Source of the DNA: a virus
IMG/VR virus record: IMGVR_UViG_3300033388_005412
Span: 62,001 to 126,000 of that record
Reading direction: 5' to 3' (one strand)
DNA length: 64,000 bases
Shown: positions 20,920 to 63,582 of the stretch, piece by piece
Layout of the letters: every line of letters starts with the position of its first letter
How positions within the stretch are numbered: position 1 is the first letter of the stretch
The notes under the pieces: model-generated
Database searches by the model: none
What the model saw: only the letters and a program-made list of their open reading frames with translations
What the model was told of the DNA's origin: nothing
Translations under genes and position numbers: made by a program

Positions 20920-21606
20920 TCAAAATAAATCCTTTAATTTTTTAACAATATTTAAAGCTTCCGACGCCCTTACCACCATAGTAACATCGGGTAAATGATC
21001 AGGCATACAGAATGGTGGCACGAACGCTTTCGGCAGCATAGACATCATCCCGCTTTCTTTTAACACCACGTTGCTGCGAGTGGGGAAGTCATATTCAACT
21101 ATCTTTCCGAAAACTGATATCTGAGACGGGCTAATAGTTACCAAACTGCCTTCTTCTCCATCACCGGCCGAGCGTAACGCAATAGCATCATCAGAAATCA
21201 ACACCCTGCTTTTGGCACCCGGGAACGACCTGATAGATTTATAGTTAGTTTTAACATTTGAATTATCAATCAACTGAGCAGGCTTCGCCGGTTCTACTGT
21301 ATCAGAATCATTTCCACCATCTTTTTTCATCTTCGGTGTAAAATACGCGAAATGTTTACTGACATCTCTCATATTTGATGAAACATTATCTTCATAAAAT
21401 AAAGTACAGTCAAAATCTTTATCATTTATAGAATAATCCATAATGCCGTTCATATATTGAATTTTGATATCAATAGGAACTTTAGAGAACTCAAAATCAC
21501 CGGCGGTCTTCGGCATAAAATAAATCAACAGCGTGTGATCAGGCAAGCTCCCGGGTTTTTCTTTTGATTTAATTATAAAATTAGAAAGTGTGATCTGCTT
21601 TATCAT
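20920..21606 (-). CDS. Small hub-associated baseplate protein
   Basis: The start ATG 21606 is chosen because AGGAG lies six bases upstream. A longer frame reaches into the hub gene but has no site. The product is 228 residues and overlaps the hub gene by 26 bases. The sequence is beta-rich: GAKSRVLISDDAIALRSAG and SLVTISPSQISVFG look like the strand pattern of an OB-fold or spike-base protein. The neighbourhood (hub, gp25, J) suggests a spike or hub cap. No specific family was confirmed. Confidence 0.75.
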   Translation of the reverse strand: MIKQITLSNFIIKSKEKPGSLPDHTLLIYFMPKTAGDFEFSKVPIDIKIQYMNGIMDYSINDKDFDCTLFYEDNVSSNMRDVSKHFAYFTPKMKKDGGNDSDTVEPAKPAQLIDNSNVKTNYKSIRSFPGAKSRVLISDDAIALRSAGDGEEGSLVTISPSQISVFGKIVEYDFPTRSNVVLKESGMMSMLPKAFVPPFCMPDHLPDVTMVVRASEALNIVKKLKDLF

Positions 21607-24600
21607 TTTCATCTCCTGTCGCGGCGCTAATTGTGTCCACAAAATCAAATATTGAATAAATTTTGTCCATAATATGAACTTTAAAACTATCCTTATACAT
21701 ACCTTCCAGGCCGGCGACATACGGCTGGCCCTTATATGTTAAACCGATGACATCTATACAATCTCTGCCCAGAAATTTTCCAATTGTCCAGCTCATAATG
21801 CTGTTTCCCAATAAAAAAGCCGGAATCACAACAGCCGCTGATATGCCTGTAACCCACGGTAACGCTGTCATTGCTGTGGTATACGCCCCGGATGCCGCTA
21901 TTGCCGAATATACGCCTGATGTTGCAGTGACCGCCACCCCAGCTGCTGTTGGTCCAACACCGGCAGCCAGTGCCCCCGATGCCGCTAATCCACCAGACAC
22001 AACTTCAGCCGCAACACCAGTTCCGACCACCCCAGTAACCGCAATCCCAGTTCCAGCCGCGGCCGTTCCCAACCCCATTGCCCCGACTGCTGCTTTCATA
22101 ATTCCTTTTCCCAATCCCATTGCGCTTCCAAAAAAAGGAACACCAAATCCATTCATAGCAGCAATTTCATATTTTATCACAGGATCCTGCGGATAAACAA
22201 TTGCATTCGGTGTAATAGTCGTTAAAAAACCTTTTTGATCAATTCTTTGAACAACCTGTTCAATTTCAATCGGACCATACATCCCATTATAAAGATCTCT
22301 GATAAAAATAATGTCCCAGACTTTCAACTGGGGCATCCCTAATAATGTTAATGACCCTCTATACATCGGCCGCATCATATTCGCCAGAACATTATATCCT
22401 ATTCTGTAAACAGTTGGAATTCGCCCACCCCAAACAGTTTGAACATTTCTTATAAAATCATTAAACCATTCAAACACCCCGAATGATGATGGGTCTATAT
22501 TATTCTGATATGAAATATAACTCTTCAGGTTACTGGTTTTAATATTATCATCAGCGAAAAATTCATGTGTTCGCCATGCACCGGTATTCGGGTTATCTTT
22601 TGGTTCCTCTGGATATCTTATTTTAACATGATTTGAAATTTCTTCAGAACTAGCTCTGATACTATTATCAACTATGTGTCTCAAACTATCAACATAATAA
22701 TAATTACGAATAGGCATATAGCCCCTTTCAATATTACCTTCTGAGTCTTTCAAATCATCAGGATTTTTAATACTCAGTGCGATGCCAGTTGCTTTACTAG
22801 TTTTATCCTCTTTTGTTTGACGAATTAAATTTTTATTTTCTATTGCATCCAATTGAAATTTGAATTTTAATATTTCTGATTTCGTGTATCCAACATTTTT
22901 ATCCTGTCTGATTTTAATCTTATCAACTGAAAATTTTTTAGTAAATAAATCGCCGGCAACGTCGCTCTTAAAAACATACTCCTGAATATCTGTGATAAAT
23001 TCCATCACTTTCTTTCTATCATTGGCTTTCATAACAATACTTAAACTATGTTCGGGATTTTTTTCAATATATTTATCCAATAATTTAAATATCTCATCAT
23101 ATGTTTGAGTTCTAACAATAGAACTAACAACATCCGCAACACCCCGGGTAATGAAACTTTTAATTCCGGCTTTTACCACACTGATAACACTGGATGACGG
23201 CCGGAATCCCTCTCTGTTTTTTTCACTATATTTACTACTAGGTTCTTTAAAAAAATCAGTCAATCGTTTCAAAAGTTCAGCACGATCCTTTCCTTTCTTA
23301 ACTATTTTTTCCATTTTTTCCCGCGTATCATACGCATCCGTATATTTATAATAACCGTTTCTAGGACCTAAATAAATTGTCTGTCTTGTTAAACCGGGAA
23401 CATTACTATTATATGGCAACACAGCCGCAATGTAATCTTCGTGATACAATGTTATCTCATTCAAAATTTCCCACAACGACTGATTACTTATTCTCCAGTC
23501 AAATGTATTATCTTTATATCGATTTCCTATATCTTTCGATGTCCAACCAAATAAAAATGTTAACCACCCCCCGAAAATATGATCCGTAAATGGTAAATAG
23601 ATATTTTCCAATCTAGGATCATAAGTTCCGAATTTATAATATATATCAACAATCGGATTTATTTTACTTCTGAAAAGATCAAAAAAACGATCTTTCGGAC
23701 TCGTGTAATATGATGTTGGTTCAATTTCAAGCCCGAATCTGGCCAGCATATTCGGACTGCCCATATGGCTTAAGCCTGTTATTGATTTCATAGCATAAAT
23801 AACAACATCACCATGTGTCTGCCCGGCACTGCAAAAACCAACATGATAATTGCCACCATCAAAACACTTCTCGTGTAATTCGGCCCCGAAACTCTGAGCA
23901 ACTATTGAAACTCTGTCACCTTGCTGAACCGACACGACCTTTCCAATAAAAAGTGTATCTAAATTCATTGGATTATTGTCGTATCCGGCCTTTATCATTA
24001 TCGTTGTGCCCTCACGTAATAGAAAACGTAAAACGGTCTGCTCCTGCAGCGTCTGTTCTTTCCTTATATTCTCACCCTGATTTGAATTTTTATCACTTAA
24101 ATTTCCAGTTATGTTACTGACACTTATTGTAGCAACATCCCCAGGTGTGTTTTTATTTGATATAACTTCAATACTTTCTATCGCGTTATATGTGTAATAA
24201 TCATCAATCATACCCCATTCTTTGTTGTCTTCTTCGATAAAATACAATTTTACAGTTGGATATGCACGACTCATATGAAGCGTTTTATCTTTTGCTCTAA
24301 ATCCGTTCGTATAACTAATACATTTATTTAAAAGATCTTCCTCCTCTGTTACCCCAAACTCAGATAACACATTCCATGACTGTAAAAAACTATTATCCAG
24401 CTGATTAATTGTGCTGATTTCATCTATCATGCGGTCTATTTGCCTTTTCTTTGAGTCAAGTGACTCAGCGCCTTCATCGGTTCCCAAGTCAGTTGTTATT
24501 TCACCTTCAAATTCTTGAATTAGTTTATAATATGCCCCGATTTTCAAACAATAATTTATCGATGCTACGTTTTTCAATAAATACTGCGATGTGTTGCACT

Positions 24601-27600
24601 CACCATACCTTCCCTTAACTTCATCGTCTGAAGAATTTAAAAAATTAACATATTTCTTCATCTCATTTTCATCATAATCTTTATTTATTTCAACAATTTT
24701 ATCCATAACTTCTTTTCTGGATTTGCCGCCTTTGCCCCATTTTTTACGCCAGTCTCCGCACAAAAGAGATTTTGATAATTTATCATTGTGTTTTTCAAGC
24801 ATAGATAATCCGGGGGCAAATTGCAATAACTCATCACGTTTATGCAAAAGCGCTATTTTAGTTTTAATGGTATCTCTCAATATTTGATAACTTGTATCAT
24901 TTTGAAATTCTTCTCTAATATAAAAAAAATCGGCCGGAGTTGATAGAAAACCGCTTTTGTGTTCAGGTAATTCCAAATCCTGATAATTACCATAATTGCC
25001 TTTCATATATAAAGGCAACTTAGGGATAAACTGTTCTTTTTTAAAACCGAATTTTGCTATTAATTCATCCTTAGCATATAAAATACATTTTATGGCCTGC
25101 TGCCTTAATAACAAATTAATAATACCGACGGCATATTTTTCAGGATCATGCCCTTTCGGCACCCCAATTGTTGGACTCCATACTGTTCCAGCTGCGAAAC
25201 CAATGCCGGCTCCTGCTAAACCACCAATAAATGTTCCCCACCCTGGAACAATTGATCCAACTCCAGCACCAAATACCATTCCACCTATAGCAAGCGGCAA
25301 ACCCGTATAAAATTTTAATTTTAATGCGAATCGTTCTTTTCTTTCTTTTTTCCAATTGTTATATAAGAATAAATATTTAATAGCATCAAAAATTTCAATT
25401 ATTTTTAATCCACCTTTATATCTTTTTAAAAATTCTCCACGGAAAAAACCCTTTTCATAATTAAACGGTAACCTAACATCGCCGCCTAAAATTAATGCTG
25501 ATACAACTTTTTCATATAATGGAAAATACTTTTTTAATTCAAAAGCATCACTGAAATTTAAATCATAATTATTTATTTGTTCAGTCGCCCAGTCCATTGT
25601 CATGTGACCATATGGCACATCAATTTCGGAACCATATCCAACAAAAAAGAATAATCTCAAAATCATAGCTCGCATATTCTGCATAGCTCTACCGTATATG
25701 TAACTGTCTTTCTCATTATCTTCCGGTAATCTATATTCAGTTATAAGTTTTTTCTTAACATCTTCGATTAAATTATCATCAAAGAAATTCGACGGCACAA
25801 GTCTTTCATATTCCGTCATGTCAATATCAGACTGAACCAGTCGTAACGTCAGATTCCACCACCCTGGTTTGCCTTTAATTGTCTCACATACAAAATCCTT
25901 AAATAATACACGAGTTATGCCCAATACTTTAAAAAGCCCGTTATAATTCAAATCAGGCGGAACTTCTAAACTATTTGTCCTCGCGATAAGTTTTGAAATA
26001 CCAATTCTTTCTCTCAATGACCGGGAAACGCATGCTTTTTTAGATAAAGATTTCAGCACTCTCATCAAAGTTTCATTACATGTCTGCAAATTAACCTGAA
26101 CAACCCAGTCACCACGGCCCATGTACTGTTTTGTCGGCATTGTGTAGTTCAGCACCGGAATTTCGGCCATCCTTGTTTCCAATGACGCCGACATACCGGC
26201 TATAATAGTATCTTCATCCTCGGTGAATTCAAATTTATATCTATTGGTAAAACCATATTTAAGCTTTTTCTGTCGTGCAATCTGTTTATCCATTAAAACC
26301 ATAATTTTTTTTCCGGATGGTATCTTTTCAAATTCATTAACAAATTCCAAAAGTGTATACGGGCCATGATCTTTTTTTAAATCAGTCCCTGGTATATCTA
26401 TAGGAATTGAAATAGTTTTCTCGCCCTTATACGCCTCCGCGAATTTTTTAACACCCCACCCGTAATATGTTGAACCACTTCCATAGTAAAATAAACCAAT
26501 AGTTCGCCAAAATTCAGTCCATGCCCGCACAATAACATTTGTAACTTTAGTTGTCGTGCCGGGCCATTCCAGACTATTAACTAATTCAACAATTTTAAAT
26601 TGTATATCAGCATTTAATTTCAAAATATCATTTTGTAATGATTCGCGCTCCTCATCGCCGAACTCCGTTATATCATATCTGCATTTAAACCGTTTAAAAT
26701 CATTTGTCCCGACCTGACGCAGCCAATTATCCGGCGCAAGAAAATTAAAACCACTTTTAATCGTGGTATTTTCATTCTGTTTAGATAAAGAAGGAACATA
26801 ATTCATTTTGATATCAACATCATCGTCAATTACTGGAAGTCCGGTTAATAAAGGTTTAACATAATTTTCAAATGGTTTGCAATTTGATATATTTTTTGTA
26901 CGATTTATGTTCTGATTGCTGGCATACTGCATATCGTTCGCCGTTTCCGGATACTGTAAATTAGTTATCTGTGAATAATATTCAATCTGTTTCAACGCAT
27001 CTTCATTTGACACGCAAAACTCAAATCCCGATGAATACGGCGAATAATTAAAAACATCCAGCACCAAATTACATTGAAGTGACTCAGGAAACCCCGGAAC
27101 TGTCGACACAACTATTGATTGTAAAGCACATGCAAGCTGAACATCTTCATATATTCCAAGCTCTTTATATTCATCTATCATATCAGCAGCCACACCCGCT
27201 TTACTTATATTTGTTCTTTCCTTTTCTTTTTTGCTTTTGGCCTTTTTTAATAATTTTATATCATTTTCTAATTTTTGAATCTCGGTATTATATTCTTTAA
27301 ATTTCTCAGGATCTGCGGCAAACACATCAAGATTTGCTTTTTTTATCTTTAGTTCTTCTTCCTTCTCCGTTATTTCTTTTTGCTTTTCTTTTATATCAGC
27401 ATCAAAGTAATCAATAACCCCGGCATACGTGTCCATTACAACTTTCTGAAAATTTTCATCAGTTTTTTTAAAATATCCTGCGCCCTGATTCTTATCAACT
27501 TCCCTCTCATAAGACGGTGATCTGTATCTTCCGGGTGATTCCTCCAATTTTTTAGGTTTACTCCACGTTACATCAGGTATTAATAAACTTCTAATGTGCT

Positions 27601-28447
27601 GATTTTCAATCGGGAGAAACGGCGATCTTAAAAACTCAGCCAGTAATTTGCGAAAACTATTATCATAATCCTTCTCCACTTTGCCGTTAATATCCTGCAG
27701 CGATGGAAAAAATATAGTCAATTCTATACGATTATTCTGCTGGCCCGTCTTAATTTTCGGCGTGCCGGCCGTCCTAACCGTATTAATCGGCATGTTAACA
27801 TTCTGTTCCGTTATTGTTATCTGATCAGGTGGAACCGGGAGAATAACAGTTCCTATTTTACAGGCACCGGGAACTTGCAATTCCTCTTCAGCGCCTTTCA
27901 TTGCCTCTATTATTTTACCTGTTCTGGCAATTTGGGCTTTATAACTTTCTTTCTTTTCAGCGAAATCAGCCCGCCTGTTTTTATCAGCTAATTGTGTGAG
28001 ATATTCTTTATTACTAATTTGATCTGTTGACCTGACACTGTCAAACCCATTTCCTGATTTGATAAGTTCAGCATTCATGTTTTTACCATCAACATAAACA
28101 ACACCTAATTGACGATCATACATATCTTCAGAAATTATTGTTTGATCCTGACTTGGATCTTGCTGTAAAAACTCTATTTCTTTTCCAGCTAAATTATCTT
28201 TTGCCCATTGTGTTGCTTTTTCACCTTCTGGTGTGTCTTTTTCATATGCATCAACACCGATGGGCCGAACTACTACTGGATCAGCACCATCAAATGACAC
28301 CCAGTATGTATCACCATCAATAACACCTGTAGGACAGGGACGATCCGGATCTATACTAGGTACTATTTTACCTGTTTTTAAAGGAAAACATTTACTGATA
28401 TTTTTCTTATTTATCGCAGGATCGTATTTTAAATATTCTTCACTCAT
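21581..28447 (-). CDS. Giant baseplate hub protein with N-terminal thermonuclease domain
   Basis: This is a 2288-residue protein. Residues ~38-165 form an SNase-like domain with DGDT (D44, D46), R61, D66, E69 and R112 in the family positions; only the usual Pro of D-T-P-E is Tyr. Residues ~195-300 look like a tail-protein domain (PVPPDQITITEQN). Residues ~1046-1100 are a glycine-zipper hydrophobic segment. Residues ~1400-2080 fit a gpD/gp27-type hub (TLFIGKVVSVQQGDRVSIVA). The end, ~2103-2218, is Ala/Gly-rich and membrane-like. Hub proteins in the family form the central ring and meet the spike. The nuclease may act at the host surface or on entering DNA; this is inference. Its start overlaps a 62-aa gene by ATGA. 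Confidence 0.82.
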   Translation of the reverse strand: MSEEYLKYDPAINKKNISKCFPLKTGKIVPSIDPDRPCPTGVIDGDTYWVSFDGADPVVVRPIGVDAYEKDTPEGEKATQWAKDNLAGKEIEFLQQDPSQDQTIISEDMYDRQLGVVYVDGKNMNAELIKSGNGFDSVRSTDQISNKEYLTQLADKNRRADFAEKKESYKAQIARTGKIIEAMKGAEEELQVPGACKIGTVILPVPPDQITITEQNVNMPINTVRTAGTPKIKTGQQNNRIELTIFFPSLQDINGKVEKDYDNSFRKLLAEFLRSPFLPIENQHIRSLLIPDVTWSKPKKLEESPGRYRSPSYEREVDKNQGAGYFKKTDENFQKVVMDTYAGVIDYFDADIKEKQKEITEKEEELKIKKANLDVFAADPEKFKEYNTEIQKLENDIKLLKKAKSKKEKERTNISKAGVAADMIDEYKELGIYEDVQLACALQSIVVSTVPGFPESLQCNLVLDVFNYSPYSSGFEFCVSNEDALKQIEYYSQITNLQYPETANDMQYASNQNINRTKNISNCKPFENYVKPLLTGLPVIDDDVDIKMNYVPSLSKQNENTTIKSGFNFLAPDNWLRQVGTNDFKRFKCRYDITEFGDEERESLQNDILKLNADIQFKIVELVNSLEWPGTTTKVTNVIVRAWTEFWRTIGLFYYGSGSTYYGWGVKKFAEAYKGEKTISIPIDIPGTDLKKDHGPYTLLEFVNEFEKIPSGKKIMVLMDKQIARQKKLKYGFTNRYKFEFTEDEDTIIAGMSASLETRMAEIPVLNYTMPTKQYMGRGDWVVQVNLQTCNETLMRVLKSLSKKACVSRSLRERIGISKLIARTNSLEVPPDLNYNGLFKVLGITRVLFKDFVCETIKGKPGWWNLTLRLVQSDIDMTEYERLVPSNFFDDNLIEDVKKKLITEYRLPEDNEKDSYIYGRAMQNMRAMILRLFFFVGYGSEIDVPYGHMTMDWATEQINNYDLNFSDAFELKKYFPLYEKVVSALILGGDVRLPFNYEKGFFRGEFLKRYKGGLKIIEIFDAIKYLFLYNNWKKERKERFALKLKFYTGLPLAIGGMVFGAGVGSIVPGWGTFIGGLAGAGIGFAAGTVWSPTIGVPKGHDPEKYAVGIINLLLRQQAIKCILYAKDELIAKFGFKKEQFIPKLPLYMKGNYGNYQDLELPEHKSGFLSTPADFFYIREEFQNDTSYQILRDTIKTKIALLHKRDELLQFAPGLSMLEKHNDKLSKSLLCGDWRKKWGKGGKSRKEVMDKIVEINKDYDENEMKKYVNFLNSSDDEVKGRYGECNTSQYLLKNVASINYCLKIGAYYKLIQEFEGEITTDLGTDEGAESLDSKKRQIDRMIDEISTINQLDNSFLQSWNVLSEFGVTEEEDLLNKCISYTNGFRAKDKTLHMSRAYPTVKLYFIEEDNKEWGMIDDYYTYNAIESIEVISNKNTPGDVATISVSNITGNLSDKNSNQGENIRKEQTLQEQTVLRFLLREGTTIMIKAGYDNNPMNLDTLFIGKVVSVQQGDRVSIVAQSFGAELHEKCFDGGNYHVGFCSAGQTHGDVVIYAMKSITGLSHMGSPNMLARFGLEIEPTSYYTSPKDRFFDLFRSKINPIVDIYYKFGTYDPRLENIYLPFTDHIFGGWLTFLFGWTSKDIGNRYKDNTFDWRISNQSLWEILNEITLYHEDYIAAVLPYNSNVPGLTRQTIYLGPRNGYYKYTDAYDTREKMEKIVKKGKDRAELLKRLTDFFKEPSSKYSEKNREGFRPSSSVISVVKAGIKSFITRGVADVVSSIVRTQTYDEIFKLLDKYIEKNPEHSLSIVMKANDRKKVMEFITDIQEYVFKSDVAGDLFTKKFSVDKIKIRQDKNVGYTKSEILKFKFQLDAIENKNLIRQTKEDKTSKATGIALSIKNPDDLKDSEGNIERGYMPIRNYYYVDSLRHIVDNSIRASSEEISNHVKIRYPEEPKDNPNTGAWRTHEFFADDNIKTSNLKSYISYQNNIDPSSFGVFEWFNDFIRNVQTVWGGRIPTVYRIGYNVLANMMRPMYRGSLTLLGMPQLKVWDIIFIRDLYNGMYGPIEIEQVVQRIDQKGFLTTITPNAIVYPQDPVIKYEIAAMNGFGVPFFGSAMGLGKGIMKAAVGAMGLGTAAAGTGIAVTGVVGTGVAAEVVSGGLAASGALAAGVGPTAAGVAVTATSGVYSAIAASGAYTTAMTALPWVTGISAAVVIPAFLLGNSIMSWTIGKFLGRDCIDVIGLTYKGQPYVAGLEGMYKDSFKVHIMDKIYSIFDFVDTISAATGDENDKADHTF

Positions 28448-44605: not shown

Positions 44606-45607
44606 TCAGGTTAAAAGTTTCTTCAACCATGACTCTTTTCTCTTACCATCTTTTTTACTTATAGCTTTTTTCTCGTCCTCAGCCGCCAACTGATCTTCGG
44701 CGATCTGGGCCGGTGTCCTCTTGGCTTTTTTTTGAGCCTCATCAGCTATATCTTCAATAATATTTCTTTTACCGAATATTTTTATAGGTATATTTTCATT
44801 ACACGTTTCGGCGAAAAAAGCGTACATCTCGGCGATCGGGTCGCCGGTCGGCTCGCATACTTTAGATACCGACGTTATATGAACATTATTTAACGTTTCA
44901 ACTGTGCCGCCGCGGAATTCTTCACTCACATCACCATATGTTATTGTTATATCAAATCCTCTATTTATGATATTCCCATATTTGGTGTTTAAATAACCCC
45001 ACTTATCTGCCCTGCGTGGATTACCCTTTTCTTTCTCAGAAAATGCTAATTCGGCCGTACCTTCCCGCTCTTCCAGTAATTGCTCAATAGTTGTGATTTT
45101 TGCGGGATTTTCTTTTTTATAATTTTCTAAAATAGTTGTCAAATATCCCGTTTCCTTAAACGCAATAGCAAACTGGCCCTGAACAATTGTTGTTCCTCTT
45201 GTAACCGCATCGAAAGTTTCACTCATGTACCCATAAATCGGCGATTTATTATTTGTGAGATTATATTGAAGTGTAATTATATCATCAACCCACATACTTC
45301 CTATAAAGATCCCGACATCGGCGCCGGCATAATAATCTTCCCAATATCCTAATTTTTTATTTTTTTCTCGTTTTAATAACTCTTTAACGATATCTTCATT
45401 TATCTGTTTATTAGACGGGGGTATTAAACTTTTATTATATTCTTGAACAGATTGACGTAGTCTTAATACTTTATCTTTAGCTAATGAATATGGTAATCCC
45501 GCAATAATAAGTTCCTCATCGGCAGGAGGAAACCCCTGATCCATATTGTAATGTATTACACCATCTTCAGCAATATATTTACTCACATAATATGTATCTT
45601 CAGCCAT
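44606..45607 (-). CDS. Tail-tube-family protein with C-terminal extension
   Basis: This is a 333-residue protein. The middle carries the tail-tube pattern: SPIYGYMSETFDAVTRGTTI then VQGQFAIAF, which lines up with SPDPRAIARSKRGIAGSMI in the 227-aa tube. The C-terminus is Lys/Glu-rich and probably helical, ending in KESWLKKLL. It may be a specialised tube, a tube-tip ring or an adaptor to the baseplate. A conserved intergenic box lies upstream. Confidence 0.72.
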   Translation of the reverse strand: MAEDTYYVSKYIAEDGVIHYNMDQGFPPADEELIIAGLPYSLAKDKVLRLRQSVQEYNKSLIPPSNKQINEDIVKELLKREKNKKLGYWEDYYAGADVGIFIGSMWVDDIITLQYNLTNNKSPIYGYMSETFDAVTRGTTIVQGQFAIAFKETGYLTTILENYKKENPAKITTIEQLLEEREGTAELAFSEKEKGNPRRADKWGYLNTKYGNIINRGFDITITYGDVSEEFRGGTVETLNNVHITSVSKVCEPTGDPIAEMYAFFAETCNENIPIKIFGKRNIIEDIADEAQKKAKRTPAQIAEDQLAAEDEKKAISKKDGKRKESWLKKLLT

Positions 45608-45696: not shown

Positions 45697-45987
45697 TCAA
45701 ATACCTAATTTTTGAAATCCAACTTCATCAGAAACATTCATCGTCCAAAGATGTTCAAAATAATCTCTGTTTTTTGTATCTTCAACAATTTTAGTATCTT
45801 CCCTTTCAAAAGTTCCACCACAAACATAATGGCCGAGTGGGTGTTTATGATAAAATGTTATGTGTGTTTCAGTTACACTTTTTATCTTGAAAAACACTTG
45901 TGCATATGTGATAATATATTTGTAATATAAGCCAGCTTTAAAATTTTTAATACCTATGTGCTCTCCGGAACACTTATCACAAACCAA
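45697..45987 (-). CDS. Small protein with N-terminal C-x2-C
   Basis: This is a 96-residue protein beginning MVCDKCSG. Further Cys and His residues (KHPLGHYVCGG near residues 47-57) could complete a metal site. The C-terminal half is acidic. It lies between tube-family genes, three bases after the 145-aa gene. No family was recognised. Confidence 0.6.
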   Translation of the reverse strand: MVCDKCSGEHIGIKNFKAGLYYKYIITYAQVFFKIKSVTETHITFYHKHPLGHYVCGGTFEREDTKIVEDTKNRDYFEHLWTMNVSDEVGFQKLGI

Positions 45988-45990
45988 TTT

Positions 45991-46428
45991 TCACATCCAT
46001 GGTGTCACATCATCACCTAAACACATAAATGTAACTAATATTTTATCATCTTCTTTAAAATAATCAATAATGTTAACATTCTTCATCTGGCAGCGAAGTT
46101 TTTCACCTCGTTCATTAACAGCATACATCACAATTACCGGATTTGTCACAGACTCACACCATCCCACATGCTGACTAAATACATCAGACAACATTTTGGC
46201 CGTTTTTTCATCACAATAACCTTCACCATATACTACACTCGCAAAACGATAAACATTGCTTGGATCTTTTTTACCAAATTCATATCTAGGAATTTTACCA
46301 GCATAAACTTCACATTTACATTTCTCAAATTCACACATTTTCTTACCATCAAAACAAACATCAGCAGTCCTGTTTGTCCAATCAGAACATAATTTTAGTT
46401 CAATACAATCTTTTTGCGATACTTTCAT
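45991..46428 (-). CDS. Cysteine-rich protein, possible diverged tube relative
   Basis: This is a 145-residue protein. The N-terminal third has several Cys (CIELKLC, CFDGKKMCEFEKCKC), which could bind metal. The last residues (VTFMCLGDDVTPWM) resemble the end of the 227-aa tube (YIARLVTPWIQ), which hints at a diverged tube fold. It is preceded by a probable terminator and has its own AGGAG site. Function is not assigned. Confidence 0.55.
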   Translation of the reverse strand: MKVSQKDCIELKLCSDWTNRTADVCFDGKKMCEFEKCKCEVYAGKIPRYEFGKKDPSNVYRFASVVYGEGYCDEKTAKMLSDVFSQHVGWCESVTNPVIVMYAVNERGEKLRCQMKNVNIIDYFKEDDKILVTFMCLGDDVTPWM

Positions 46429-46521: not shown

Positions 46522-48438
46522 TTATTGATTAACAAGGTACTGATAATTGAACGGAGTATTTCCATTTAATCCAGCAACTGTCTGTTCCCGACGAGAACCT
46601 GTAAAAATAGCGCCGGTCGGAATACCACCCTCTGATCCTTTCCTCTCCATCAAGTCTATATCCATAGCAACATATGACATTGTGTTTTCTGTATAGACAT
46701 CCTCGATAGAATGTGTTTGACCCTCGTCGGCGACTTGTATGCCGTATATGGCCATTGTTGATTCTAAACCGAATTCATTAACATAATTTAATATTATATC
46801 AAATGAAGGTAACTGATGCGCGATGACAACTTTTTTTGTCACATCACTTTTTGATTTTGATATGTCCCATAATGCACGCTGATTAAATACATTAAATATC
46901 ATTGATCCGGCGATTGTAATTGAATTATGAGATAAAAACATACCAAATAAATTATGATTATTATCGATCTCTAAATCATATGTTTTAAAAACTCCTATTT
47001 TTTTAATTTCTTTTATTTTAACCCATTTAAATTTCTCATAACAAGATGGTTTATATTTCCGTAAAAAATCAAAAATATGTTCACCTAATTTTTTCAACAT
47101 TTCATATGTAATTGTTTTTGAATTAAGTGTTGATATCCCAGCCCCAAATTTCTTTCTAATATTCAATTTATTATGTTCAATATAATCTCGCAAATCCTGA
47201 TATTTATATCCTAAATTATTCTTTAAAGATTCTAAAATATTTTCGTATCTTTCTTCTTTGCCAAAAATTCCAATTTCTGTTAAAAATCTATAATGATATT
47301 CCGCAGGTATAATAACATTATATGAATCATGTTTTCTTATAATACCCCATTTATTTTTCCTATTTTGTTCTTCATTTACCGGATTAAACCCTATATATGA
47401 ATATATACCCACTTTAGACAACAACTGCTTAATTTGAATAGCTAATTTATGGGAAGTTGTAGAATACGAAATTCTCACAGAATCATTTATTTTCTTTTTT
47501 CTAACATGTATAGTTCCGTCTGTTCCCCAAATTCTGTTCAAAAATAGTTGGGTTTGCGATATTGACATATTCATTAATAAATCAGGAACAGTTTTTTCAT
47601 ATGATTTTTTGCCATAAATTCCCAACGAACGTGTCCAAATAATGAATGGTTTGTAAATTCTTTGAGCCCAACCAGTTGATTTTTCACAATTATGAATTGT
47701 AATATTATAACAATTTCTATCAAATCTTTTATGATACGACAAATTATTTTTTAAACATTCATCTTCAATGTCCTTAACAATTTTCGCATCATAAACACCG
47801 GGTGTGAAAGAAAACCGCTTTTCTTTACCATTTTTATATAAACCAAATACACCATCACCAATTGAATATGCCATAAATTTTATATAATAATCAGGAATAT
47901 TGATATCATCATTAACTCCATAATCTAATGGGATCATTAATTCATCATTAACAATTAATTCAGAAACCGTTTTCCATCCTTCTTTAGTATAAACTAAATG
48001 TGTTTTAGTTAAATCCATTTTAGAACTATCTTGTAATAAAACAGAATAACATTCCTGTGAACCCTTATAAAATTTATTAGTGCACTTTTGGTATGAAACT
48101 TGATTGTTCTTCTCATCCAAAGATAAAATTTTATCACCAATAAAAATATCTTTTACTTTTTTATATCCTTTATCAGTATAAATAAGTTCATCACTAGCGA
48201 TACATCCTCTTGTAAATCCGCGAACTCTGTTACGCCCAAGTGTTCTGACGGCGCCCTTATCCTGATGTATACTGTAACTTAAAGTTGCTATATCTCCGAT
48301 GACAAAAATTTGATCTTTGCCTTCCCGATCCCGGCCGACACATACCGGGATAATATCGCAACCACTATATGTTGATCTCTCACGCCAGGGGGCTGTATCC
48401 AGACGAAAAAATGGTGTGTCGGCACCCCTGTTTTCCAT
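46522..48438 (-). CDS. Tail tube protein interrupted by an intein
   Basis: The precursor is 638 residues. The intein covers residues 79-505, so the spliced protein is 211 residues. The exteins join as ...VRGFTRG + SITIAGSMIF..., which matches the core of the 227-aa tube (RSKRGIAGSMI). The C-extein has a tube-like ending (TMSYVAMDIDLME). In the family, tube rings stack inside the sheath. It sits one gene after the sheath. Without splicing the tube could not form, so splicing probably decides whether the tail is made. Confidence 0.88.
   Translation of the reverse strand: MENRGADTPFFRLDTAPWRERSTYSGCDIIPVCVGRDREGKDQIFVIGDIATLSYSIHQDKGAVRTLGRNRVRGFTRGCIASDELIYTDKGYKKVKDIFIGDKILSLDEKNNQVSYQKCTNKFYKGSQECYSVLLQDSSKMDLTKTHLVYTKEGWKTVSELIVNDELMIPLDYGVNDDINIPDYYIKFMAYSIGDGVFGLYKNGKEKRFSFTPGVYDAKIVKDIEDECLKNNLSYHKRFDRNCYNITIHNCEKSTGWAQRIYKPFIIWTRSLGIYGKKSYEKTVPDLLMNMSISQTQLFLNRIWGTDGTIHVRKKKINDSVRISYSTTSHKLAIQIKQLLSKVGIYSYIGFNPVNEEQNRKNKWGIIRKHDSYNVIIPAEYHYRFLTEIGIFGKEERYENILESLKNNLGYKYQDLRDYIEHNKLNIRKKFGAGISTLNSKTITYEMLKKLGEHIFDFLRKYKPSCYEKFKWVKIKEIKKIGVFKTYDLEIDNNHNLFGMFLSHNSITIAGSMIFNVFNQRALWDISKSKSDVTKKVVIAHQLPSFDIILNYVNEFGLESTMAIYGIQVADEGQTHSIEDVYTENTMSYVAMDIDLMERKGSEGGIPTGAIFTGSRREQTVAGLNGNTPFNYQYLVNQ
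46924..48204 (-). mobile_element. Intein in the tail tube gene, LAGLIDADG type
   Basis: It is 427 residues (79-505 of the precursor). It begins CIASDELIYT, has block B DLTKTHLVYT and ends FLSHN, with Ser +1. Endonuclease blocks are YSIGDGVF and IWGTDGTI. All splicing residues are present. The insertion is at the most conserved strand of the tube fold. The four-cysteine knuckle seen in the other two inteins is absent. Confidence 0.95.
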
Positions 48439-48442
48439 CTAA

Positions 48443-49126
48443 TTATACTGCTGGAATATCAGTCGCGGGATTGGTTCCCTGTTGAATCCACGGAGTTACC
48501 AGCCTGGCAATATATGTCATCTGAACCTCGTTTGATGTATCATCAATCGATATCCCGGAACCCTCATTCAGAATCTCAATAGCAAAAACCCTCATCATTG
48601 AACCCTGACCATATTCGTTGGCCGCGGCCATTGTACTGTCAAAAGGCAATAACTGATCCGCAAACATGGGCTTTGCCTGAACCGATAACGACCCGGGATT
48701 AACCGCTGTCGTATCAGGTAGTGTGGTTAAAGTTCCAATATCAGATACATTAACACCCTGAATGGCCTCTTCAATTGCACCCGTAGCAAGTGATATTGCT
48801 GGATCAGCTGCAACATATGGATTCGCAATTGATGTTTCTATGCTACCACGTTTAGCCGCAAAAACAGAACCCGCCATAAAATCACCAAGACAATGACGAT
48901 CAAATGTTGTCATTATCATGCTTCCGGCGATACCTCTTTTTGATCTCGCAATTGCCCGCGGATCAGGAGAGCCCATTGTATAAATCGGCGCCTTCTGCCT
49001 CGTTATACTGTATGAAATACCCTGAATCGTTGAAATAATACTATCATTAAATACAGAAAATATGTCCGTTCCTGTATGAACACTATATGTTTCTGTGTAT
49101 GACGATGTTCCTAAACTTGAACCCAT
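48443..49126 (-). CDS. Tail tube protein
   Basis: This is a 227-residue protein with the myovirus tube pattern: ISYSITRQKAPIYTMGS, PRAIARSKRGIAGSMIM and, at the end, TYIARLVTPWI. It follows the sheath gene after a 72-base gap and has a strong AGGAGG site. It could be the major tube, with the two relatives downstream as specialised tube or terminal rings. Which of them is the major subunit cannot be decided from sequence. Confidence 0.82.
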   Translation of the reverse strand: MGSSLGTSSYTETYSVHTGTDIFSVFNDSIISTIQGISYSITRQKAPIYTMGSPDPRAIARSKRGIAGSMIMTTFDRHCLGDFMAGSVFAAKRGSIETSIANPYVAADPAISLATGAIEEAIQGVNVSDIGTLTTLPDTTAVNPGSLSVQAKPMFADQLLPFDSTMAAANEYGQGSMMRVFAIEILNEGSGISIDDTSNEVQMTYIARLVTPWIQQGTNPATDIPAV

Positions 49127-49198: not shown

Positions 49199-52015
49199 TT
49201 ACGATGTTAGTTTAACCTCCACAGCAATTCTCCTTAATTCAAATGCCGGTCCTAACACCAAAGGAATTCTCGCAACACCAGCGACGACCTCAGCCGGCGT
49301 CTGATGTATCGCAAACGAAAAACTCCGTAATGCGCCGTCTTCCTGCATGGCAAGTAAACCCTTTGAAATAGCCGTATCAAGCGCTGCTTTTTTGGCATCA
49401 TTAAACCCTTCACCTAAGAAAGGTCTGCCAACAGCCCTAACCACATTCATGGCGGCCGCTGCTATTCTAAAAGTAGAAAGCCTCACCCAGTCACTTCCCG
49501 TGGCTGCCGCTGTAACACCGTCACAAACAACAGGACCAATACCTGATATAAGTCTACCTCCGACATATCTCAATTCAGTTAACTTATCAAGCTGTCTCGC
49601 TGAAAGATTATACCTCAATGCGAGAACTTCAGTTCCTAATGACTTATTAGTTGTCGCACTTTTAGGAACTAACTGAGACACCAGCCCGGCATAATGAGCC
49701 TCACCAGTGGCCGCATATGGATACGTTATCACATTATTAGCTATAACAGGCTCATATGCAACAACATTTATCAGTCTGGCATCGAGACCGGCCATAACAT
49801 TAGCGGCTCTTGTTAAATCAGATGTGCTTGTTACTGTTAACTTCGTAAACCAACTCGCAACATCATCAATCTTAGGACTATCGGCCGGTTTAACAGCCAT
49901 AACACCAAACGCTTCATTAACACCATCCATCATACTTTCAAGATGGGCGTTCAACTGCTGAACAAATCCAGCATTTACCTCAATTGGTAATCCGGTCTCA
50001 TCATCATACACAACTTTAGTATCATCCAAATATGTGTTCATAACTGTTATGATATCAACAGGATAATCCGCTATTGCGGCATATGTATCAGTCAAAACAT
50101 CATATTTATCAATGTTGCTCATTATAATGCCATTTGTGCCGCCCTGAAGGCTCTGTGAGGCCGATAAATTAACCCATTCAGGTTGATAGTCATAATCAAA
50201 CCCAAACACCCTAATATTGTCTATATCAGGCTGATTATCGCCCGCCGATATTGCGATTTTACCCGCAGCGGCATCTGATATAATAACATCCTTGTCTATT
50301 GTATAAACAACCTTAGCTGAATAATAAATAGCCATATCAGCCGGCTGAGCCGTACCAAATGTTATTTTCTTGCCGGCCGCGAAATACGACTTATAACTAT
50401 GTGTTGCGGTAACAGCTGATAATGTCGGATGCTGTGTTAAAGCAAATGCCTCACTGTTATAACTAACAGTAATTATCGACTTCGAGGACGGAGCCGGTTC
50501 AATAGTAACAGCCGCGACTTGTCCATCGCCACCGCCAACATCCGTTAACGTCCAACCAACTCCGGAACCATCATCTTTAGGCACCAAAACAGTTTGACCC
50601 GCCGTTGATGTCCTGAAAAATTTAAGCTCTAAATCGCCATCCCCATCGACAGCATCAGAATCAATAGCCTCATATGCTGTAAATGTAAAAGCTTTTGTTT
50701 CGCCGTCTCCAACACCTATATAACTGTTTCTCACAAGATGTTTGGCCTCTCCGTCATTAACAAGATCAACAGATCCATCTAATTTTAAAAGAGGAATCGA
50801 CAATGCTCCGCTCATTTGAATAGGATATGGTAAAGAAACGGCCGCCTTACCTGACGAACTCAATTCAGCCGCCATATCATTTAACTGATAAACTTCATTT
50901 AATTTCACAAGTCTGTTTGACGCTGTGACACTTGCCGGAAACGGAAAAACAGGAACATACTGTTCAACAACTGTACTATTTGCAGTTGTATGTGCGGCAA
51001 TAGTTGTACCAAACATACCTCGTTTATATTCATCCGCAGCAATAACACCCGTAGGCGCAACATCAACGATCTTAACACTATATGTCTTAGTTGCTATATC
51101 AACACCATCATACTGAACAATTTCCATATCGGTCACAACATCGCCGACTTTGTGATAAATCTTCAAATAACCCGTACTATCGGCCGCCATAAAAACAGGA
51201 AGAGCATCAGTTGTAACAACTCCACCATCAACAGCTGTCGGATCAACATTTATATTTGCCGCCAAATTAGCAACCGCAACATCCGACGTATCAACTGTAT
51301 AATCATCATCAGTATCAGCTAATTTAAAAGCATCAACTAAATTAATAACTATACTCCCACTCGCGTCGACATAAGGCATATCTTTTTGAACATCAAGTTC
51401 AAAAGATGTTCTGATTTCATTAGCCTCGGCCGTAACAATCCCCGCTAAATTAGTATCAGCATTAATAGCCGCCACTAAACCAACAACATCACTAACAGAC
51501 CCACTCACAACAGCAGTCGGATCAAATGGTATAACACTTTCCAATCCGGATACAGGGTTATAACCAACAACCGATAATTGTCCATTCACTATTTCCTGTC
51601 TGAATGACACACTATTATATATGTCACCAGGATCATTGGCTGTAACAGTCATCGCCGGTATGGCCAAACCGGTAACAGCGTCAACTGTTTCCGTTTTTTC
51701 TTCCGTTCCGGCCGATTCATTGACAATTAACTCCGCAGTATTACCGTTTGTTATTCTGCAAAGACGAATGTCTTTAACAGCACCCGGCGCATAATACGCC
51801 TCACAAAAACCCCTAACTAGTGTCCCACTTTCTGCAGATCCAAAAGCAGCAACTGCAGCCTCAGGTGTTCTAATAGCAGTCGGACTATTTTTTGGGCCCT
51901 TTGTACTAGTACCGAGAATCAATATACTATCTCCGCTACTCACAACCCTAGCTGTGTCTAAATTACCATCTTGTAACGTACTTACAATATTAGGTAAGTG
52001 ACTCAAATTTCTCAT
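49199..52015 (-). CDS. Tail sheath protein, very large
   Basis: This is a 938-residue protein. The N-terminus (SSGDSILILGTSTKGP and a following PEAAVAAFG stretch) and the C-terminus (RPFLGEGFNDAKKAAL, then an ending rich in R-I-A-V-E-V) are typical of phage sheaths. The middle (~250-650) is expanded by beta-rich Asp/Val/Thr-rich domains that probably decorate the outside. Typical sheaths are about 400-700 residues, so this is long. It forms the contractile outer cylinder. The tube gene follows. Confidence 0.9.
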   Translation of the reverse strand: MRNLSHLPNIVSTLQDGNLDTARVVSSGDSILILGTSTKGPKNSPTAIRTPEAAVAAFGSAESGTLVRGFCEAYYAPGAVKDIRLCRITNGNTAELIVNESAGTEEKTETVDAVTGLAIPAMTVTANDPGDIYNSVSFRQEIVNGQLSVVGYNPVSGLESVIPFDPTAVVSGSVSDVVGLVAAINADTNLAGIVTAEANEIRTSFELDVQKDMPYVDASGSIVINLVDAFKLADTDDDYTVDTSDVAVANLAANINVDPTAVDGGVVTTDALPVFMAADSTGYLKIYHKVGDVVTDMEIVQYDGVDIATKTYSVKIVDVAPTGVIAADEYKRGMFGTTIAAHTTANSTVVEQYVPVFPFPASVTASNRLVKLNEVYQLNDMAAELSSSGKAAVSLPYPIQMSGALSIPLLKLDGSVDLVNDGEAKHLVRNSYIGVGDGETKAFTFTAYEAIDSDAVDGDGDLELKFFRTSTAGQTVLVPKDDGSGVGWTLTDVGGGDGQVAAVTIEPAPSSKSIITVSYNSEAFALTQHPTLSAVTATHSYKSYFAAGKKITFGTAQPADMAIYYSAKVVYTIDKDVIISDAAAGKIAISAGDNQPDIDNIRVFGFDYDYQPEWVNLSASQSLQGGTNGIIMSNIDKYDVLTDTYAAIADYPVDIITVMNTYLDDTKVVYDDETGLPIEVNAGFVQQLNAHLESMMDGVNEAFGVMAVKPADSPKIDDVASWFTKLTVTSTSDLTRAANVMAGLDARLINVVAYEPVIANNVITYPYAATGEAHYAGLVSQLVPKSATTNKSLGTEVLALRYNLSARQLDKLTELRYVGGRLISGIGPVVCDGVTAAATGSDWVRLSTFRIAAAAMNVVRAVGRPFLGEGFNDAKKAALDTAISKGLLAMQEDGALRSFSFAIHQTPAEVVAGVARIPLVLGPAFELRRIAVEVKLTS

Positions 52016-61393: not shown

Positions 61394-63582
61394 AGTTTTG
61401 CCGTCCCTTCGAGTATTTTTTGAATTTCCTGTAACTCACCGTCTGATAAAACTTTATCACAATTGCAATCCCCATCGCCGTCTAATATACGTCCAACTTC
61501 CTGCTGAGAATAACCCATAAAATTTGTCAATAAAATTTTCACCCCATCTATTGACCAAGGATCCGCATGCTTAAAATAATCCTCGGTCTCTTTCAACACT
61601 TGCTCTTCTTCAGCTGATAATTTTCTTTTTAAATCTTTTTTATCCGAATCAATACCCGTTACACTTTTACCTGTATATATAGTAGTAAACTTTTTGTCTT
61701 TTTTAACAATATCCTTCAACAAATTAGACATATATCTATCATCAATATCAGCAGCCGCCGCGGCGGCTAATCGCACATTCTCCGACTTCAAATCATCAAT
61801 TCCTGGCTCGACGTTTTCTACACAAAGTTCCCAGAATTTCATAAAACCTAAAACATTATCAATCATCCTAATCCATGATTCAAATTTGAGAACAAACACA
61901 GCATCATCCGTTATTTTCTTTGCTTTTAACGCGCTTAACCGGCCATTAGCAAATAAACTTGCAATATATGCACCAAATTCTTTCATAAATCTATCCAAGT
62001 AAAGACCTAATGTTGTCGTCAACTCAAGCCATGGTAAACATTCCCGTCCAAATGCTTTGTACCTAGTCAAATCTTTAGAATTCAAAGCATATTTATTTAT
62101 GCCAGAATTAATCAACTGACCTAACGATGAAAAAACTTTTCTAATTAATGAATTCACTAGTGTAATGACAAAATTCGCAAAATCAACGACAGACTTATTC
62201 AAATCCAATGTCATTATATTCAACGTGAACTCCAACAAACCTTTTATCATCAATAAATTTTTCTTTCCTAACGCTATCCTCTCACCATGTTCTCCGATAT
62301 GTGCAACTTGTTTTCCTAAATTAGCTATTTGTGTTATAATTCTTAAAACACAGCATAAAAAAGTTGGCGACATAACCCAGCTCTTCATGCCGTCTTCGAC
62401 TGACTTTATAAAATCATTATTAATTGTATCAAGAACTGATTTCATACCATTCCACTGTGACGAAAATTTAGTAGAACCATCAGCTCTAGCCTTCAAATAT
62501 TCTTCCGGCAAATTAGGCTCAAATTTAATGCCACCTGGAGTTTCAAAACCATCCGGAACATACAAGCTAGCGACCTCCTGCATTGTTTTTATATTTTGAA
62601 TCTGTGCCTCGTTTGCCTGCTTGATTGCGAACCATGCCGTGTGTTTTGGTGATTGTTCCCTAACCTTCTCATTCGCTTTTTCAAAAAAATCTTTTTCATG
62701 CTGAATACAATTAAACAATGAAATTTCCTGAGTAATTTGACCAATTGATGACACCGGATTTATATCAGCATATGCCTTGTCTTGCGCGACATCCATTTGT
62801 GCTTCACTATCTTCACCCGAATCAACAGCCGCCGTATCTTGAATTTTCTTAAGCTGTTTTTTTAACGGCAAATCACCGCCGCTTTTCAACGAATCTATGG
62901 CCGACTTAATTTTTTGGGGAATTTTATTAACAAATTTAACACCGGATAATGGCCTAAGCTGAACATAAATGAAACTCAAAACCCATATCAATATTTGATT
63001 CCAAACACCGCGCATCATTGTCTTAACCATATCATCAAATTTATCCTGCTGTTCCTTTCTGATATCATCCGGAGTTTTATAACCAACCTTATCGGGATCG
63101 GCATGGGAAAACAAAACTTTATTCCTATTATTTAATGATTTACGTTTTACGGCAAAATCTTCAGCTGTTAACTTATCACCCGCCGCCTTTCTACCACAAT
63201 ATGGGCAATTAATAGCATCATAAAGCAAACGATCTTTATCTTTGTCTATAGGAATTGATAAATCTTTTAATTGTTTATCGCATTCTTTATCAATCTCATC
63301 CAGCTTATTATTTATATAATCAGCATATTCAATATATTCGTCAATGACCTGTTGCTCCTCATATGGTAATAAATCTCTGGGGTTTTTAACACCACCAGCC
63401 GGTTCACTCGGCACTTTAATTTCACCAGGATGATGCTTCGCCATATGGGTATTATATTCCAAAACTGTTTTAAATCGTATATCACAGTATTTACAATAAA
63501 ATGGGTGAAACGGCGGAACTCCAAAATCACCATCAATTTTTCCGGGAATATGCTGGATAATAGGTTTTTTTAAATCATCCAT
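61390..63582 (-). CDS. Large head-region protein with C2H2 zinc finger
   Basis: This is a 730-residue protein between terminase and portal. Residues 30-50 form a classical C2H2 finger: C30-x2-C33-x12-H46-x3-H50. A second C-x2-C (NCPYCGRK) lies near residue 126. A long helical body follows with hydrophobic spans (~195-215). The C-terminus has DGDGDCNCDKVLSDGE, similar to a Ca-binding loop. The family is unknown. It could assist packaging or occupy the portal. C2H2 fingers are rare in phage proteins. Confidence 0.75.
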   Translation of the reverse strand: MDDLKKPIIQHIPGKIDGDFGVPPFHPFYCKYCDIRFKTVLEYNTHMAKHHPGEIKVPSEPAGGVKNPRDLLPYEEQQVIDEYIEYADYINNKLDEIDKECDKQLKDLSIPIDKDKDRLLYDAINCPYCGRKAAGDKLTAEDFAVKRKSLNNRNKVLFSHADPDKVGYKTPDDIRKEQQDKFDDMVKTMMRGVWNQILIWVLSFIYVQLRPLSGVKFVNKIPQKIKSAIDSLKSGGDLPLKKQLKKIQDTAAVDSGEDSEAQMDVAQDKAYADINPVSSIGQITQEISLFNCIQHEKDFFEKANEKVREQSPKHTAWFAIKQANEAQIQNIKTMQEVASLYVPDGFETPGGIKFEPNLPEEYLKARADGSTKFSSQWNGMKSVLDTINNDFIKSVEDGMKSWVMSPTFLCCVLRIITQIANLGKQVAHIGEHGERIALGKKNLLMIKGLLEFTLNIMTLDLNKSVVDFANFVITLVNSLIRKVFSSLGQLINSGINKYALNSKDLTRYKAFGRECLPWLELTTTLGLYLDRFMKEFGAYIASLFANGRLSALKAKKITDDAVFVLKFESWIRMIDNVLGFMKFWELCVENVEPGIDDLKSENVRLAAAAAADIDDRYMSNLLKDIVKKDKKFTTIYTGKSVTGIDSDKKDLKRKLSAEEEQVLKETEDYFKHADPWSIDGVKILLTNFMGYSQQEVGRILDGDGDCNCDKVLSDGELQEIQKILEGTAKL

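Follow-up and report, generated by a model that had tools for sequence, protein, structure and literature searches.

The tail tube locus and its insert

The DNA analysed here (the window) is a stretch of 64,000 nucleotides, positions 62,001 to 126,000 of the IMG/VR virus record IMGVR_UViG_3300033388_005412, a phage record of 203 kb. On its minus strand the window contains a tail operon in which the gene of a tail tube subunit is interrupted by an intein. Host protein and intein are encoded together by a single open reading frame (ORF) of 638 amino acids (aa), which is divided as follows, the basis of each assignment being given in brackets.

46522..48438, minus strand: precursor of 638 aa, tail tube paralogue 2 plus intein (ORF; Pfam and PHROG matches)
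48205..48438, minus strand: N-extein, 78 aa, ending in RVRGFTRG (alignment of the joined exteins)
46924..48204, minus strand: intein, 427 aa, Cys1 to Asn427, guanine plus cytosine (GC) content 25.7% (Pfam, motifs, composition)
46522..46923, minus strand: C-extein, 133 aa and stop codon, starting with SITIAGS (alignment of the joined exteins)

The insert is a class 1, LAGLIDADG-bearing intein, as its boundaries and catalytic residues are read from the sequence. It follows directly on codon 78 of the tube gene and takes up codons 79-505 of the ORF (window positions 48204 down to 46924). The Pfam profile Intein_splicing (PF14890) matches residues 87-505 of the ORF with an E-value of 9.1e-11 and 42.2 bits, the curated cut-off being 35.8 bits, and LAGLIDADG_3 (PF14528) matches residues 298-390, likewise above its cut-off (E 4.2e-11). 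A previous examination of the same DNA, made from the letters alone and referred to below as the sequence-only reading, had placed an intein at 46924-48204, and these coordinates are exact to the base. The residue following FTRG is Cys, the class 1 nucleophile. TKTH at intein residue 66 and TYDLEID at residue 408 are what we take to be block B (TxxH in class 1) and block F. The intein ends in FLSHN/SITI, where the slash, here and below, marks the junction; His-Asn followed by Ser at position +1 is the class 1 arrangement. Moreover, two LAGLIDADG motifs with acidic residues are found, AYSIGDG at intein residue 112 and NRIWGTDG at residue 223. The GC content of the intein is low compared with that of the exteins (47.4% and 37.1%), and a random stretch of 427 codons at the intein's base composition would be free of stop codons with a probability of about 3e-20. 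Its best sequence match in PDB is the Spl DnaX mini-intein (E 1.1e-6), and tblastn detected inteins of 23-29% identity in phage helicase, primase-helicase and terminase records.

The host protein and the insertion site

When joined, the exteins form one uninterrupted homologue, which aligns end to end with the tube-2 orthologues without a gap at the junction and is 41% identical to tube 2 of locus L004. In Bacillus phage KLEB27-3 the protein matched by the exteins carries a tail tube annotation; the PHROG matches of the exteins fall into phrog_9206, which is labelled 'major head protein'. The tail sheath and tube 1 immediately precede the host gene, and the gene order is the same in KLEB27-3 and MTATph1. 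Three tube-like genes occur at the corresponding place in KLEB27-3, MTATph1 and L004, and when the first 85 sources were searched with the tube profile, 80 had three tube-like ORFs. A search of PDB sequences with this profile gave no match at E <= 1. Structure was examined on an AlphaFold model (predicted local distance difference test, pLDDT, 76.3) of tube 2 from L115, the nearest complete intein-free orthologue, which stands in for the joined protein of the window. In Foldseek the model retrieved 68 chains at E <= 0.001, comprising phage tail tubes, neck proteins and Hcp, with the HFTV1 tail as top match (E 1.0e-6); VIA-align superimposed it on the HFTV1 tail chain with Z 9.9 and 4.7 A over 151 residues. 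The interpretation given in the sequence-only reading, an intein in a tail tube protein whose relatives have an empty site, is supported by the Pfam matches, the junction alignment, the survey of related ORFs described below and the match of the L115 model to solved tubes. The interrupted gene is the middle one of three tandem tube paralogues, any of which may be the main tube. The presence of three gp19-like tube proteins in virions of Campylobacter phage IBB_35, described in PMC3322345, indicates that several tube paralogues can be structural.

The junction FTRG/SITIAGS aligns gap-free to IARS/KRGIAGS of the 227-aa paralogue and to VTRG/TTIVQGQ of the 333-aa paralogue, as the sequence-only reading had written it. 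On the numbering of L115, the insertion point falls between residues 88 and 89. It is four residues into the strand 84-101 and adjoins the turn after the strand 58-74 of the model. In an alignment of 31 orthologues, picked by hand from 91 non-redundant rows, strand 84-101 reaches a mean conservation of 3.12 bits. The claim that the intein sits in the most conserved strand therefore holds as far as the top mean value is concerned, yet the place is shared with strand 58-74. The most conserved stretch of 13 residues begins at L115 residue 90, just past the intein site. Position -1 is Gly in all 31 orthologues; position +1 is variable (P 11, G 6, T 5, S 4, A 4, Q 1; Ser in the window), and position +2 is Arg in 30 and Glu in L115, with Ile in the window.

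The neighbouring genes of the tail operon are the following.

48443..49126, minus strand: tail tube paralogue 1, 227 aa, intein-free (ORF, PHROG, alignment)
44606..45607, minus strand: tail tube paralogue 3, 333 aa, intein-free (ORF, PHROG, alignment)
49199..52015, minus strand: tail sheath, 938 aa, upstream neighbour in the operon (phrog_16991 tail sheath, E 1.7e-56)

Tube 2 and tube 3 are separated by two small minus-strand ORFs, 45991-46428 (145 aa) and 45697-45987 (96 aa), unlike in L004 and L115, where tube 2 adjoins tube 3; the 145-aa ORF gives a marginal match to the tube profile (4.0 bits). Short fourth tube-like ORFs follow tube 3 at L135:8479-8622, L140:9141-9560 and L028:8698-9024. 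Elsewhere in the window, a 2288-aa ORF (21581-28447, minus strand) has a staphylococcal nuclease-like domain near its N-terminus.

Inteins and probable introns in the related phages

Intein presence among related phages, the comparison by which the sequence-only reading had proposed to check its claim, was surveyed in 551 tube-like ORFs from 186 loci and the window. Because several loci share contigs, distinct ORF sequences were counted, of which there were 414. The intein site is spanned in one aligned segment by 404 of them, nine more are pieces (truncated, frame-broken, split by introns or of half length), and the window's ORF is the only one interrupted at the site. The nearest relatives, L092 (FVRG/SRTIGGS) and L115 (FVRG/PETVAGT), have an empty site; tube 1 of L092 is 63% identical to that of the window, and its tube 2 is cut by the contig end past the site. 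The relatives are thus intein-free at this position, as had been stated. The best 80 of 266 (A2) and the best 80 of 487 (A4) relatives were kept. Pattern scans of the viral collection for HN, then Ser, Thr or Cys, then the C-extein motif, in a tube-2 and a tube-1 version, gave no matches; they demanded the HN ending and Phe at +10 and omitted the window's own record, and other endings would escape them. As a control, the tube-2 pattern matches the window, and its C-extein half with the preceding Gly is found in 122 of 193 loci; the tube-1 scan was run without a positive control. No match was obtained when three inteins of the window were compared with 84 loci by tblastn. Some long tube-like ORFs looked interrupted without being intein cases: those in L027, L081 and L040 carry inserts elsewhere, and a long match in L021 consists of two adjacent tube genes, one of them apparently frameshifted.

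Other inteins are present in the same operon, at the position of the tape measure gene.

39580-38222 and 38149-36881, minus strand: two tape-measure-position inteins, class 1-like, 453 and 423 aa, in a 2851-aa ORF (profile match or visual inspection)

Three relatives, G012, G036 and G011, have intein matches in the ORF at this position, which is 3618, 2618 and 2578 aa long, respectively, and interruption of tape measure genes by endonucleases is frequent according to PMC10448857. Further inteins of the window's record were recognised, from profile matches or by inspection, in a glycosyltransferase-like ORF and in a 575-aa ORF; the tube intein is not close to the other inteins of the record. 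The intein in the glycosyltransferase-like protein (L007:1-3054, minus strand, same record) is 213 aa long, without a Pfam LAGLIDADG match, and that in a 567-575-aa protein at L010:1033-2736 and L202:1048-3693 (both minus strand) resembles, by eye, the GIY-YIG type. In the phage of L115, the ORF corresponding to the 575-aa one is 881 aa long and contains two inteins, of which one lies at the matching site and is 58% identical to that of the window's record. Such patchiness, with an intein common to both phages and the tube site empty in one of them, is typical of mobile inteins. In the phage clade inteins are frequent: among 36 related records picked by hand from the loci, 16 gave an intein profile match, nine of them above cut-off.

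Tube 1 of one relative is also interrupted. At L028:2087-5740 the tube-1 gene is split into pieces around three LAGLIDADG ORFs, and the group I intron family RF00028 matches L028 four times at E <= 1 (1.4e-8, 1.7e-6, 0.019 and 0.15), each time below the gathering score. Apparently this tail tube gene carries three introns. The insert of the window might by analogy be a free-standing or intron-borne endonuclease misread as an intein and removed at the RNA level. We give this explanation next to no credit, since the insert is in frame with both exteins and has Hint splicing blocks at both ends, and Rfam yielded no match at gathering score in the window, as in L028 and L092. Taken together, the tube intein, the tape-measure inteins and the L028 insertions suggest that tail genes of the clade have been invaded repeatedly by different self-removing elements.

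A predicted homing intein in a tail tube subunit

With high confidence we regard the insert in tube paralogue 2 as a typical class 1 homing intein that is predicted to be self-splicing and is best seen as a selfish and roughly neutral element. Judged by its residues it probably splices, and it has perhaps retained its mobility. The 638-aa precursor would splice itself by an N-S shift at Cys1, transesterification to Ser at +1 and Asn cyclisation, releasing the 427-aa intein with its endonuclease from the ligated tube subunit of 211 aa. During co-infection the endonuclease would cut intein-free alleles and spread the intein by homing. The intein may be retained because imprecise loss is penalised at a conserved site in a structural gene. 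According to the sequence-only reading, splicing must precede ring assembly. The size and the site of the insert indicate that splicing probably takes place before the subunit joins the tube ring, since the close packing of the ring would be upset by 427 aa within a conserved strand.

Several points weigh against a homing intein of this kind. The empty-site DNA of the two nearest relatives is identical to the joined site in 24/48 and 28/48 positions, so that a shared homing target is not established. Sequence searches found no close relative of the tube intein. With Ile at +2, the spliced tube would be an imperfect match to the family at the scar. A fold of the 638-aa precursor, calculated from a 12-row alignment, was discarded (mean pLDDT 48.2, predicted template modelling score, pTM, 0.33). 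The atypical residue at +2, together with the two intact tube paralogues on either side, would also suit a dead insert, in which splicing has been lost and paralogue 2 lost or replaced by paralogues 1 and 3. We hold this to be highly improbable, since neither the reading frame nor any of the recognised splicing residues is damaged. Moreover, paralogue 2 is present in KLEB27-3, MTATph1 and L004, and most sources have three tube-like ORFs, so that it is probably needed.

Splicing might also be conditional, the intein serving as a timing or stress switch that keeps the tube subunit inactive until late infection and gates tail assembly. A site within a conserved strand of a ring-forming fold would probably leave the unspliced subunit unable to polymerise, two further inteins lie at the tape-measure position of the same operon, and a stress response of other inteins is reported, as cited in PMC7156551 and PMC8987985. 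Against this, the sequence bears no sign of regulation, the motifs of the endonuclease appear undamaged, which is what a selfish homing element would show, and a site that is empty in all examined relatives argues that tail assembly needs no conserved switch. We consider such a switch very unlikely. That the tube intein and the two tape-measure-position inteins together splice conditionally, gating tube assembly as a morphogenesis checkpoint, is likewise a proposal to which we attach little probability.

Among phage proteins, terminases and enzymes acting on nucleic acids are the best-known intein hosts. The tube intein, which we consider an ordinary homing intein, shares with the class 1 LAGLIDADG inteins of phage terminase, ribonucleotide reductase (RNR), helicase and primase the residue Cys1, the TxxH of block B, the HN/S junction and the two LAGLIDADG motifs; it differs in its host, a tail tube subunit, and in having no close sequence relative among those found. 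The probable group I introns of L028 likewise bring endonuclease genes into a tube gene of this phage clade, but they interrupt another paralogue at other sites and are presumably removed at the RNA level. As far as the available parts of the sources go, inteins in a virion structural protein are known from mycobacteriophages, where the host is the portal protein and not the tube (Kelley et al. 2016, PMC5050341), inteins had previously been seen in terminase and non-structural genes according to a paper on cluster J (PMC3706429), and crAss-like phages, which are also large phages, have many introns and inteins in core genes, a tube intein not being mentioned there (PMC7886860). The available parts of PMC2147016, PMC3556154, PMC6293099, PMC5259590, PMC9957025, PMC3322345, PMC10448857, PMC7156551, PMC8987985, PMC3706429, PMC7886860 and PMC5050341 report no tail tube intein, nor was one found in the open-licence literature as far as it was accessible, although it may be reported elsewhere. 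To this extent the description of the tail tube subunit as an unusual intein host is borne out.

The tail tube is thus a new host protein for an ordinary, known kind of element, and the range of proteins invaded by inteins is extended to a tail tube subunit. In one clade of large phages, tail tube genes are targets of inteins and of probable group I introns alike. A protein forming homopolymeric rings is a demanding host for an intein. Since a small unspliced fraction could poison tubes, the tail tube is suited to asking how efficient natural splicing must be.
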